Shown: in pieces, positions 4,651 through 52,215 of the stretch
How the letters are laid out: every line of letters starts with the position of its first letter
Position numbering within the stretch: the stretch's first letter is position 1
NCBI GenBank assembly: GCA_021208565.1
Contig: JAJOJN010000062.1
Location: 1-64,000, forward strand
DNA from: Nitrincola sp.
Lineage (GTDB): Bacteria; Pseudomonadota; Gammaproteobacteria; Pseudomonadales; Balneatricaceae
Direction: 5' to 3'
Length of the DNA stretch: 64,000 nt
Translations under genes and position numbers: made by a program
The notes under the pieces: generated by a model
The model's input: only the letters and a program-made list of their open reading frames with translations
Told to the model about the DNA's origin: nothing
Database searches by the model: none

Positions 4651-4864
4651 TAAAGTCTCACGTAAGCGCCCAGAACCGTCTGAGCGACGTTGGCTGTTGA
4701 GTACAGCCTTTTTTCAAAATAACGGTTGAGTGTAAATGGGTCAAGTAAGATCTTTGCTTTAAGATCAATCTTAATCCAAGCATTGAGCGTAATCTTGTGA
4801 TACTTCGCTATAAAAACAGTAGACTATAATCTGTTTCATTCAGTGGTTTTGTTTAAGGGAGACG

Positions 4865-44817: not shown

Positions 44818-45669
44818 TTATTCTGGCTTGGCCTGACCTCTCAGCATAATTAAGGCCGCAAAACATACAATCATAATGCCCAGTAAAGTGAAGATATTGA
44901 CGGTTTCGTTCCAAATCAACCACCCCATTAAGGTAGCAAAAATAACAGATGCATAGGTGAAAGGACCTAACTGCCCCGCAGGTGCCATGCCATAGGCACG
45001 GGTTAACAACAATTGCGCCATGGTTGATGTGGCAGCCAAACCAAACAACCAAATAAATTGTGTTAGTGTTGGCATGACCCAGTTCATAGAGGCAGGGATA
45101 GCCGCCAAAAGCGAGCCAAAAAAGGCAAAGTAAAACACGATTTTATTAGGCGACTCACTGCCACGCATTGAACGAATAGTTACCTTCGCTAATGCACCCA
45201 ACATTGCGCCAACCAAACCTACCAATACGGCGATATGAAGAACGCCATCGTCAGGTTGTAAGATAAACGCCACTCCCGTAAAACCAACCAGAATGGCCAC
45301 TTTTACGCGCGTTGAAATGGGTTCTTTTAACCACCAGAGTGCGATCAGAGGTAAGAAGAAAGGTGCCGTTTGTTTTAGCATGGCAGCTTGGCCTAATGGC
45401 AAATGTGCCCAAGAATAAAACAAGCAACTCATAGCGGTGACACCGATCAGCGCTCTCAAAAAATGCAAATGCACTCGTCGCGTCGGAATTTCTTTAGTGC
45501 CTTGTCTTAGAATCCAAGGCATCAGCCAAACCAAGCTTAACAGGTTTCGCATCAACACAATCACTTCAATCGGCAGATCATTACTGACCTGCCGAATAAT
45601 CATGCCGCTGCCTACCAGAAACATTTCTGATAAAACGATCAGCAGTGCACCCAGTGTAAGAGGACTCAA
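44818..45669 (-). CDS. DMT/EamA family transporter
   Basis: Ten-TM pattern with LGQAAMLKQTAPFFLPLIALWWLKE and second repeat. Confidence 0.85.
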   Translation of the reverse strand: MSPLTLGALLIVLSEMFLVGSGMIIRQVSNDLPIEVIVLMRNLLSLVWLMPWILRQGTKEIPTRRVHLHFLRALIGVTAMSCLFYSWAHLPLGQAAMLKQTAPFFLPLIALWWLKEPISTRVKVAILVGFTGVAFILQPDDGVLHIAVLVGLVGAMLGALAKVTIRSMRGSESPNKIVFYFAFFGSLLAAIPASMNWVMPTLTQFIWLFGLAATSTMAQLLLTRAYGMAPAGQLGPFTYASVIFATLMGWLIWNETVNIFTLLGIMIVCFAALIMLRGQAKPE

Positions 45670-48598
45670 ATTTCTATCCGCTGATAACTCTCGGGTAAAC
45701 TGGCTGAAAGCTTAGCGTTTGACACGATAGCTACACTCTGGCGCTCTGGATTAAGCCAAGTATTCGCAACACGCTGCAGGTCTTCACCGGTGACCTGAAG
45801 AATACGTGCTCGGAAATCACGTCGCATCTCCTGTGTGCGTCCAAAGAGTTCAGCGTGAAAATCTTTCTTCGCCTCTCCTGCCGGTGAAGCAGGTTTGTCG
45901 ATCGAACTGACTACCCCTAAAATCGCTTCCTCTACTTTTTTGGGATCAGGAGTCGAATTAACCAACCACTCTTTTGCAGCCAGAAAATCCGCTAAGGTTC
46001 CTTCAATACGCGGATCGCGATAGGAATAAAAACGGAACACGGCATCACCATTATCCTGTGCAGCACCGCCACCATAGGCACCGCCTTGTTCACGAATAGA
46101 GCGATGCAGATAACCATTGCGTAGATAGTCGCCTAACACAGTTAAAGCAGCCGCATCGGGATGCTGACTGGTGACCGTTGGAAATGCCATGGCACAGAAG
46201 TTAACTTGCGTATCTGTCAGCCAAATCTGCTTAACTGCACTGTGTGTATGGGGTAACGCAAATGAATTGAATGCTTGATCAACGCTAGCCAAGGTTAAAA
46301 GCTGTTGCTGATAGCTTTGCTCCAAAACCGCCTGATGCTCCGCTTCACCGACAAGCAATAAACGACGAGGAGATGTTTGAATGCGTTTATGCAAAGCGGC
46401 CATGGCGTCTGCTAGATTTTGTATAGCCGAGGGTTCATCTAACGTTTTATCCAGAGCTTTCAGGCGTCGAATGCCTTCAAGGCCGGTGGTAAGGTGAGCT
46501 AGTTTTGCGGCAGGGCTATAATCTGCGGATGCAGCCTGCATCGCCAGTGCATGTCCTCTCCCTGTAATGCTGTTAACGCGACGAGATCGCATTTGTGCAA
46601 CAATTTCCCGAATACGCTTTAGTTCATCGAAGCGAGCGTCCTTTAGTGTTTCAGCCATTAAACTCGCTAAGCGCTCTTGATTGACGGCTAGCGCCTTGCC
46701 TGACAGCACCAAGAAACCTGATACCTGCTGTGCATCATCTGGAGCGCCTCTTACCGAAGCACTTGCCGTAAAGCTACCTGTGATTTCACTTTGATAAGCT
46801 TGATTCTGTCGATAATCTCTTTCGCCACAGCCCAACTCAGTTAAGCAATGGCTATACAGCGGTAAAAGCTGTTGTTCAGCATCCGACAGCAGCGGTAAAT
46901 CAATAATCATTTGTTGATAAGACAAACCATTGGTTCCAGCAGCGTACCATCGAGACCCATGACCCAATCCTGCGAGGTTAATCGGAGTTGGGAATTTAAT
47001 TGATGTGGGTACATCCTGTAAGGTGACACAGGTAAAACACTGTCATCATCCACTTGGGTTTGACGCATCTCTAGTGCTTTAGTGCGTTCGATGATCTGCT
47101 TGGCTTCTGCTTCAGATAAACGCGATTTAATCGCAGCTAAGCGCTGTTTTTCTGCAGCTTCACGTCGGGCGCTCAGATCAGCATCCGGTCTAAGCGTTAC
47201 TCGAACACGGTGAGGATTGTCTAAAAGCCAGCGTTGAACTAACGATGGAATAAATTGTGGTGATTTGATTTTTTCACGTAAGGACTCAAGTGCAGGATCA
47301 ATATTCAGAGCACTCAAAGGATCACCCCGATGAATACCCGCGGAAAGTCCTGCTAACATGAGTTGCAGACCAAAGGGCATACCATCACCCGTAATTTCAC
47401 GCTGAGACAATTCGAGTTGATGCAACTGCGCTTCAACCATGGATTGATCGACACCTTTTTCAACGATCTCTGTTAAGGTATCGAGAACCAGTTTCTCGAA
47501 GGCCTGCGCATGCTCTGGCTCGCTTCCTTCGATACCACATACAAAACTCATTTCTCGGTTAGAGTCCTCTAAACCACACATGGGAGATGGCGAGGAACCG
47601 AGTTCAGAGGATTCAAGAGCGGCACGAAGGGGCGAGCTAGAGTTATCCAGTAGCACTTGAGATAACAGATGCGCTTCCATTAAGGCTTCAGTATCAATTG
47701 ATCGAGGTAACAACCAGCCCATCACATGATGTGTCTGCTTTTCGGTAGAGGGTTGATCACAGGCATAACCCTCCTCTACTCGAAGCGGTGAAAAGTAACG
47801 TTTTTCATCTTCGACTTGCAGTGTTAACTCGCTACGCTCAAAGCGAGACAAGGCTTGTTGATCAACTCGTGCTTGAATATCAGCAACGGGCAAATTACCA
47901 AAGGTCATTATCACGGCATTACTCGGGTGATAATGGCTGCGATAAAAGTTCAGCAAAGCATCGTAGGTTAAATCTGGAATACAGGAAGGCTCTCCACCCG
48001 AATTATGATGATAGGTGGTTTGCGGGAACAGGTAACGCGTTAGGGTTTGCCAGAGTGTCGATGTTGGAGAGCTCATGGCGCCCTTCATCTCGTTATATAC
48101 GACACCTTTATAAACCAAATCGGACTCGGAGTTTTCGGGATCTTCAAACTCAACACGATGCCCTTCCTGAGCAAAGTCTAAAGGATCTAAACGCGAGAAA
48201 AACACTGCATCTAGGTAAACATCCAATAAATTGTAAAAGTCTTTAGTGTTTTGACTGGCAAAGGGATAAGCCGTCCAATCACTACTGGTAAAAGCATTCA
48301 TAAAGGTATTGAGTGAACGTCGCGTCATCATGAAAAAAGGATCACGCACGGGAAAACGCTCACTGCCGCATAACACCGTATGCTCAAGAATATGTGCTAC
48401 ACCGGTAGAGTCCTCTGGCATGGTTCGCACAGCAACAAGAAAAACATTTTCATCGTTATCCGCTTGGATATGGTAATGCTTTGCACCTGTTTGACGATGC
48501 TCGAACTCCAACACATCAATAGCAAGTGACTCAATCCATTGTTTGCGCAGAAATATAAAACTGGAATGAGGGTCAGAGTAATAATTCGCTTCGGTCAT
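45666..48598 (-). CDS. M16 insulinase/PreP-like peptidase, frameshifted near 46930
   Basis: TGVAHILEHTVLCGSERFPVRDPFFMMTRRSLNTFMNAFTSSDWTAYPFASQ (HxxEH); C-term domain in ORF 45666-46967. Confidence 0.9.
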
Positions 48599-48784
48599 AA
48601 AAAATAAGTCCTGCTCTTGAAACATGACGCTGATCAATTTTTGAACAGCCAGCTTGTGCTATAATGATGTGTTGATTGTACCTGTTCATCAGGTGAATTG
48701 CTCTGATCTAGGAGACAATCAATACTGACAGTTTGATACTTAATTCTGGTGTCGAGATTGAGGTATCAAGATGCTTTTCAGCCA

Positions 48785-48836
48785 TTGACACAGAACAGAG
48801 TCCTGACTACATTAGGCACTTTGTTGCAACGCACAA
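48785..48836 (+). promoter_or_regulatory. Sigma70-type promoter and candidate operator of phasin gene 1
   Basis: TTGACA (48785-48790), 17 bp, TACATT (48808-48813); motif TTGTTGCAACGCACAA at 48821-48836 near predicted +1. Confidence 0.6.
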
Positions 48837-48870
48837 TAATACAGTTATTTTAAACTTCGAGGTGTTCCCA

Positions 48871-49233
48871 ATGTACGATCAGATCAAAAATACTATGAAG
48901 CCTGTTATGGATATGGCTGAAATCAACAAGAAAACTGCTGAAAAACTGATTAGCCTTCAGTCGCAATATGTCAGTGACTTTGTGAACTCAAGTTTAGCTC
49001 AAATGAAAGCCTTAACTGAAGTTAAAGATCCTAAAACTGCTATTGAAGCACAAATTCGTTACATGAAAGAGATCGAAGCGAAAGCCACCGATATCGCACA
49101 ACAAGAGATCTCTGCACTCAGCGAAGCTAAAGCACAACTCACCCTACTGATGGAAAAAACACTTGAAGAGATGGGTGACAGTGACTACTTGGCTGAAGTA
49201 CAAAAAATGATGAAAAACTTCACTAAGAAGTGA
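48871..49233 (+). CDS. Phasin family protein 1
   Basis: MYDQIKNTMKPVMDMAEINKKTAEKLISLQSQYVSDFVNSSLAQMKALTEVKDPKTAIEAQIRYMKEIEAKATDIAQQE. Confidence 0.88.
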   Translation: MYDQIKNTMKPVMDMAEINKKTAEKLISLQSQYVSDFVNSSLAQMKALTEVKDPKTAIEAQIRYMKEIEAKATDIAQQEISALSEAKAQLTLLMEKTLEEMGDSDYLAEVQKMMKNFTKK

Positions 49234-49241
49234 TGATCTCA

Positions 49242-49313
49242 TTGTGCAGTGCAAAAATAATTTGACACATCCTTCCTATTTCTGTAGAAAGGTCTTTATG
49301 CTGCACTGCACAA
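49242..49313 (+). promoter_or_regulatory. Promoter of phasin gene 2 flanked by a perfect 12-bp inverted repeat
   Basis: TTGTGCAGTGCA (49242-49253) and TGCACTGCACAA (49302-49313); TTGACA (49262-49267), 17 bp, TAGAAA (49285-49290) between them. Confidence 0.65.
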
Positions 49314-49339
49314 ATAATGGATAGTTTGAGGATCACACC

Positions 49340-50015
49340 ATGACAGACCCGATGAAAGACCTGAAAAAAACGTTTGAAGACGCGATGAAGCCAGTCACAG
49401 ATAGCTTTAATGAAGCGATGAAGCCAATGAAAGAGCTTTCTGACAGTTTCATGAAGCAAGCTGAAGAGCAATTTGAGCCAGTAAAAGAGAAATTTACTCC
49501 GGCTATCGAAATGGCAGAAATCAACCGTAAAACCGCTGAAAAGCTTATGGCTATTCAAGCTGACTACGTATCAGATTTTGTCAATGCTAGTTTGGCTCAA
49601 TTCAAGTCTCTTGTAGATGCTAAAGATCCTAAAGAAGCGATCAAACTCCAGATCGAATTCTTAAAGACGTTGGATGCTAAATTCACAGATGTTGCTGAAA
49701 AAGAATTGGCAACGATGTCTGAAGCGAAAGATCAACTCACTGAAATCGTCGAAAAAAAGCATTGCAGACCTAAGCGATGCACCTTTTATGAACGAGTTCA
49801 AACAGTTTGATCTGAGCAAGTTTGATCTGTCTAAGTTGATGCCAACAACGGCTCCAGCTAAAGCAAAAGCACCGGCTAAAGCGGCAGCACCTGCTGCACC
49901 TAAAGCAGAAGTTGCTGAAAAGCCTGTGGCAGCTGCAGCGAAGCCAGCGGCTAAACCCGCTACCGCACGTAAAGCAGCAGCTCCAGCGGCTAAACCAGCT
50001 TCAGACAACAGTTAA
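49340..50015 (+). CDS. Phasin family protein 2 with Ala/Lys/Pro-rich tail; one extra A in the run at 49752-49758
   Basis: FTPAIEMAEINRKTAEKLMAIQADYVSDFVNASLAQFKSLVDAKDPKEAIKLQIEFLKTLDAKFTDVAEKE; tail PAKAKAPAKAAAPAAPKAEVAEKPVAAAAKPAAKPATARKAAAPAAKP. Confidence 0.87.
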
Positions 50016-50043: not shown

Positions 50044-50069
50044 AAAGGGCCTTAATTTAGGCCCTTTTT
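50044..50069 (+). terminator. Intrinsic terminator after phasin 2
   Basis: AAAGGGCCTtaatttAGGCCCTTTTT. Confidence 0.88.
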
Positions 50070-51491: not shown

Positions 51492-52215
51492 TTGATGATT
51501 GCAAGTCGAATCATAGCGCATCGAGGATGTGCTGCCTTAGCGCCGGAAAACACCCTTGCCGCTATGAAAGTCACCCAATCACTGGGTATTGACTGGGTTG
51601 AAATAGATGCCAATTTATTGGCTGATGGGCGAGTTGTTATTTTTCATGACGATACGCTCGATCGATTAACGACTTCTCAGGGCGAACTTTCGACACTTAG
51701 TTTTCAATCCTTAGAACACTTGGATATAGGTAGTCATTTTTTCAACTGAGTTTCATGAGGAGCGTATTCCCTCGCTTGAAGAGATGCTCATTCACTTATC
51801 AGCCCAAAAAATAGGTCTCAATTTAGAGATTAAACGATACGACTACTTTACACCCGAGCAGATAGTAGATCCGACCATTACGGCTCTAGAAAATCACTGG
51901 CAGGATTTTGATCGGTTAATTATTTCCAGTTTTGATCATGAGATTCTAAAATTAATACACCAACGAAAACCCGATTGGAAACTCGGACAGTTATGGGAAG
52001 GTTTGCCTGAGAATTGGCAGGATTGGGTTGTTGCGATTAATGCTGTGAGTGTACACCTCTATCATGCGCTGTTAACAAAGGATCAAGCACACGCTATTAA
52101 AGAGGCTGGATTAGAGTTGTACGTTTATACGGTCAACAGTCCAGATGCTGCTGAGAAAATGTTTGCCATGGGCGTCGATGGTATTTTTACGGATGACCCG
52201 ACAGTGTTTAGTTGA
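51492..52215 (+). CDS. ugpQ: Glycerophosphodiester phosphodiesterase, frameshifted near 51742
   Basis: IIAHRGCAALAPENTLAAM, EIDANLLADGRVVIFHDDTLDRLT, GVDGIFTDDP. Confidence 0.88.

Follow-up and report, generated by a model that had tools for sequence, protein, structure and literature searches.

Probable PhaR operators at two tandem phasin promoters of Nitrincola, and an apparently undescribed small RNA gene with the same type of site

Described PhaR systems and the tandem phasin locus

The closest described systems are found in Ralstonia eutropha, Herbaspirillum and Sinorhizobium meliloti. In R. eutropha, the published binding sites of PhaR give the consensus YTKNTGCRNYGCANMAR, and the phaP1 promoter carries two footprinted regions, one directly upstream of the -35 box and the other around the start site (PMC12849132). 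The PhbF protein of Herbaspirillum recognises the motif TGNTGCN3GCAA and, in H. seropedicae, was footprinted at the promoter of its own gene, phbF (PMC3206438). In S. meliloti, the PhaR sites include ATATTGTGCAGTGCAGCAACA, and PhaR represses the small RNA MmgR (PMC12542648). The locus described here resembles all three. The sites tested by EMSA in S. meliloti resemble the motif of our locus (PMC12542648), and each phasin promoter of that species (phaP1/phaP2) has two palindromes near the -35 box, as is the case here, though the PhaR of S. meliloti (AniA) also targets phaZ and other genes. The likeness to H. seropedicae lies in a motif at PHB-related promoters, with phaP1 repressed in a reporter assay.

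In this study, the window, that is, the whole stretch of 64 kb that was analysed, belongs to a Nitrincola genome of 2.71 Mb in 135 contigs that is 87% complete. The initial annotation had proposed that TTGTTGCAACGCACAA at 48821-48836 and TGCTGCACTGCACAA at 49299-49313 share the pattern TGYTGCAMYGCACAA at two tandem phasin promoters. Both sites were found at these positions, and no other exact match to the pattern exists in the 64 kb. A further copy, on the minus strand and with a single mismatch, was not listed in that annotation; it occupies 49242-49256, between the end of the phasin 1 gene and the TTGACA of the second promoter. This copy adjoins the 5' side of the phasin 2 -35 box, so that the phasin 2 promoter lies between two operators. 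When the R. eutropha consensus YTKNTGCRNYGCANMAR was searched with at most one mismatch, exactly three matches were obtained in the 64 kb window, each with one mismatch and all clustered in 494 bp around the two phasin promoters. All three are palindromes with a TGC-N3-GCA core fitting that consensus, and they are given here without strand as the putative operators O1 (TTGTTGCAACGCACAAT, 48821-48837), O2a (ATTGTGCAGTGCAAAAA, 49241-49257) and O2b (ATGCTGCACTGCACAAA, 49298-49314). O1 and O2b are conserved, and an upstream site such as O2a is found in many relatives.

The predicted promoter of phasin 1 (48785-48813, plus strand) consists of TTGACA at 48785-48790, a spacer of 17 bp and TACATT at 48808-48813; it was confirmed by the promoter scan and is kept in the nearest relatives. 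The predicted promoter of phasin 2 (49262-49290, plus strand), also kept in the nearest relatives, was read from the sequence as TTGACA at 49262-49267, 17 bp and a weak TAGAAA at 49285-49290. The description of both as TTGACA-17-TANANT-like promoters therefore suits the first and only half of the second, which has a good -35 box, a -10 box that is not TANANT, and no entry in the list from the promoter scan. The TTGACA of this second promoter and the stretch TGTAGAAAG are nevertheless kept in the nearest relatives. The placement of the two downstream sites at about the start of transcription was borne out, as O1 and O2b each cover approximately +1 to +17 of the predicted transcripts of phasin 1 and phasin 2, respectively. 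With O2a directly 5' of the -35 box, phasin 2 has the arrangement of phaP1 in R. eutropha H16, where the same palindromic motif occurs upstream of the -35 box and at the start of a sigma-70 promoter; the further predicted site within the phaP1 gene of that strain is not evident here.

Both genes, on the plus strand, encode phasins of PF09361. The phasin 1 gene (48871-49233, 120 codons) scored 46.7 bits and the phasin 2 gene (49340-50015) 54.6 bits, against a cut-off of 24.9, and a terminator-like hairpin found by scan follows phasin 2 at 50044-50067 on the plus strand. In this assembly, the phasin 2 gene is interrupted at about 49755-49765 and read in two frames, whereas its counterparts in relatives of the genus are uninterrupted, at 210-255 aa, so the break may be an assembly error. 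It falls in or near a run of seven A. Several of the neighbouring genes, at 45666-48637 and 51492-52215, also look split.

The number of matches in the window does not exceed chance, since shuffled windows gave a mean of 1.16 consensus matches and three were reached in 14 of 100 shuffles; the count alone is thus weak evidence, and the argument rests on position and conservation. Conservation, which is the decisive part, was examined in 30 loci from this genome and its relatives, holding 46 phasin genes, with a site accepted at no more than one mismatch and within 200 bp upstream. Such a site precedes 41 of the 46 phasin genes and is lacking from the other five; in 20 it is paired, the two sites lying 57-66 bp apart from start to start, most often 61. 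Altogether, 61 sites fall in the 9,246 bp upstream of phasins and 3 in the remaining 88,449 bp of these loci, an enrichment whose formal P value overstates independence because the loci are related. The order of operator, TTGACA, about 17 bp, TATATT-like box and operator recurs across genera in the locus listing. A third PF09361 phasin of the genome (L049 1477-1803, contig C89) adjoins a flavodoxin-like gene and has no PhaR-type site upstream at up to two mismatches.

PhaR and its probable control of the phasin genes

No phaR gene lies in the window, as the initial annotation had noted, and the only match of the genome is on contig C51. This single PhaR gene scores above the cut-off for both PF07879 and TIGR01848, and it adjoins a class III phaC, also above its cut-off, and a phaE match that falls below its own. 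A small gene of 94 codons directly upstream of phaR (L014 11599-11883) possibly shares its transcript. In the comparison of family genomes, phaR is missing from five (G011, G019, G020, G026 and G033), and it is exactly these five that lack a phasin hit.

Searching the motif at the PHA genes, as had been suggested, gave a mixed outcome that still favours PhaR: the motif stands at the phasins and possibly at one class I phaC, but it is absent at phaR and not reliably present at phaEC. No conserved site was detected near phaR in the 30 loci, and autoregulation of phaR was rejected on this ground; here the Nitrincolaceae differ from H. seropedicae, where PhbF binds its own promoter, and the phaR of this genome likewise has no site of its own to set beside the R. 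eutropha system. A site at phaR is not among the features that define the operators of the phasins. At phaEC, no conserved site was present in 15 relatives, and the site overlapping the phaE start on C51, which these relatives have not kept, was taken as chance.

The PhaR-type control proposed for the two phasins is strongly supported by the fit to the consensus, the encoded PhaR, the family-wide presence of the site at phasin promoters and the co-occurrence of phaR and phasins. From these we infer PhaR binding, and the palindromes in the window very probably serve as operators for PhaR, the PHA-sensing repressor whose gene lies on another contig of this genome. In the absence of PHA granules, PhaR would sit on the palindromes and keep RNA polymerase off both phasin promoters, O1 and O2b by covering the start region and O2a by covering the DNA beside the -35 box. 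As polymer forms, PhaR would be drawn onto the granule, the operators would become empty, and the phasins would be made and coat the granule. Site positions, their conservation, the promoter geometry, the phaR gene of the genome and the conserved RNA fold described below are the observations beneath this scheme, while its steps of occlusion, repression and PhaR sequestration by nascent granules follow what the literature on PhaR suggests (PMC12849132, PMC12542648).

Other explanations were considered. Some other transcription factor that recognises a similar TGC-N3-GCA motif might control the phasins in place of PhaR, whose binding we infer and whose own promoter carries no site here; nonetheless, the sequence agrees with published PhaR sites of three genera, the genome has a phaR gene, and phaR and phasins co-occur, which makes such a factor very improbable. 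That the shared motif is a chance likeness, or a leftover from the duplication of tandem phasin genes with no regulatory function, would agree with the window counts, which are not above the shuffled expectation, and with the two genes being paralogs. This explanation is contradicted by the retention of the sites, their pairing and the promoter geometry over many genera, and by the occurrence of the site at an unrelated small RNA promoter, and we give it next to no probability.

The direction of control is a separate matter. PhaR has been reported to activate phaP3 in R. eutropha (PMC12849132), so that repression cannot be taken for granted at each promoter, and PhaR might bind here and mainly activate one or more of these promoters. 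Against this, the sites cover the start region and flank the -35 box of sigma-70-like promoters, which is the layout of the repressed phaP1, whereas phaP3 has a sigma-N-like promoter with sites far upstream and within the gene; activation is accordingly very unlikely. Read as PhaR repressor sites, the phasin operators are in themselves unremarkable and add one more case to a system already described. Their value is that they establish the likely control logic in a PHA-accumulating lineage that has received little study, and that they show the phaP1 arrangement of R. eutropha, with its two operators, to recur in this family of Gammaproteobacteria.

A predicted, conserved small RNA gene and its PhaR-type operator

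Elsewhere in the genome, perfect or near-perfect palindromes were found on contigs C11 and C31. The C31 site belongs to an unannotated small RNA gene (L041 4691-4848), with the operator at 4691-4707 and the RNA at about 4727-4848. Judging from the translations, the flanking genes are that for prephenate dehydratase (pheA) upstream and an mgtE-type transporter on the other side. No sizeable protein gene follows the operator on C31, and a strong terminator-like hairpin is present there. The predicted RNA measures about 120-130 nt and has four stems.

The element, from operator to terminator, was recovered by DNA search in every one of the 10 other genomes of the genus, and three genomes of other genera also have it. 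When named genomes were scanned for the pattern, it was located in Nitrincola and Marinobacterium, MAGs included, and the locus of the relative G001 is identical to that of Nitrincola lacisaponensis in the stretch compared; a pattern match in an anammox MAG lacked the element. In an alignment of 29 sequences, 97.6% of the cells were paired, against 38-46% with the partner slid, and double-sided changes numbered 26 cells, compared with 5.3 in shuffles; the sequences were aligned to fit the structure, a procedure that favours the pairing score, but helix 1 can be checked by eye. Five of its six pairs show compensatory changes, and its variants are GTCCTG/CAGGAC, GTTCTG/CAGAAC, GCTCCA/TGGAGC and TGTCTA/TAGACA. 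The inner second stem was not recovered when RNAalifold was run on the Nitrincola subset alone, and the homologs share no reading frame that reaches 12 codons. A predicted promoter of its own, a conserved fold with compensatory change, a terminator and the lack of a conserved reading frame point to an independent small RNA gene.

A covariance model built from the RNA alone, with the operator left out, detected the RNA in 49 of 117 family genomes and 8 of 16 genera; across 369 genomes of the class, its matches were this genome and two weak hits judged to be chance. A PhaR-type operator accompanies nearly all of the homologs and every strong one, and since the operator was absent from the search model, its presence before them constitutes independent support. 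In the weaker hits from other genera, whose 5' ends are uncertain, sites with up to two mismatches precede the RNA near the predicted -35 box. One hit, L210, appears to be a homolog whose only site is more degenerate, and four further hits without a matching site (L209, L219, L171 and L172) were judged to be chance.

In 24 sequences, the operator lies at about -36 to -20 and a conserved TATNTT at -12 to -7. The operator thus supplies the -35 region of the promoter, and PhaR, if bound, should exclude the polymerase. In many homologs, a second site lies 54-55 or 64-66 bp farther upstream. The interval between the two sites holds a further conserved dyad, TTANA-N9-TNTAA, which stands at -72 or -62 relative to the RNA start (e.g., L105, L112, L111 and L128) and moves by about 10 bp, one helical turn, together with the upstream PhaR site. 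A joint shift of this kind would be expected if an activator bound to one helical face, and the dyad is a candidate activator site.

The RNA was compared with known families. With members from several genera, no Rfam family reached its gathering score; the 3' part has a weak sub-threshold likeness of 20-32 bits to anti-hemB (RF02837) and Hrs13 (RF02631), whose gathering scores of 49.5 and 52 are far above this, and homology is not claimed. The nearest functional parallel is MmgR (alpha-r8) of rhizobia, where a PhaR operator likewise sits on the promoter of a trans-type small RNA. MmgR of S. meliloti, at 77 nt, differs from the RNA here in length and host class, and the C31 RNA passes the threshold of no Rfam family. 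The two single-stranded stretches of the RNA did not pair above background with the starts of the phasins, phaR, phaE or phaC (background of 258 translation starts, stretches of the own genome; the best, class I phaC, at the 6th percentile).

Taken as a whole, it is likely that the Nitrincolaceae hold an undescribed family of small RNAs of about 120 nt and four stems, with a PhaR operator over the -35 region and often a second one 54-66 bp upstream, whose release on titration of PhaR by granules would form a PHA-sensing riboregulatory arm, analogous to MmgR but apparently unrelated to it in sequence. Release of the RNA would coincide with that of the phasins, and its targets would be mRNAs. 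It is without a match to a known family, apparently undescribed, and extends the idea of PhaR-controlled small RNAs to the Gammaproteobacteria. We regard this as the larger gain of the analysis: through a repressor that senses granules and also releases a conserved RNA, carbon storage would extend its influence to other mRNAs. In the literature consulted, MmgR is the only small RNA repressed by PhaR, and a second, apparently unrelated one would suggest that the pairing of PHA sensor and small RNA arose more than once. The result provides a defined RNA, a promoter and a strain set for testing the role of such RNAs.

Further sites in the genome

Several other matches occur in the genome. A site with one mismatch upstream of hfq (contig C89, L222 1219-1235) was rejected as a member of the regulon; it stands in the same place, with one or two mismatches, only in some close Nitrincola and is absent from other Nitrincola and most other genera. 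Sites with one mismatch on C27, C94, C106, C114, C128 and others fall within open reading frames and were attributed to chance. On C11 (L016 17932-18370), a short broken gene with no Pfam match is preceded by TTGACT/TATACT with a PhaR-type site on either side; the gene was not accepted as that of a phasin and is left as one for a putative small granule protein. The possible class I site mentioned above is on C116 (L225 1242-1258), where one mismatch separates it from the consensus and a second phaC, of class I type (PF07167), begins about 130 bp downstream. Further sites were observed upstream of a UPF0093 gene on C49 and between etf-like genes on C21.
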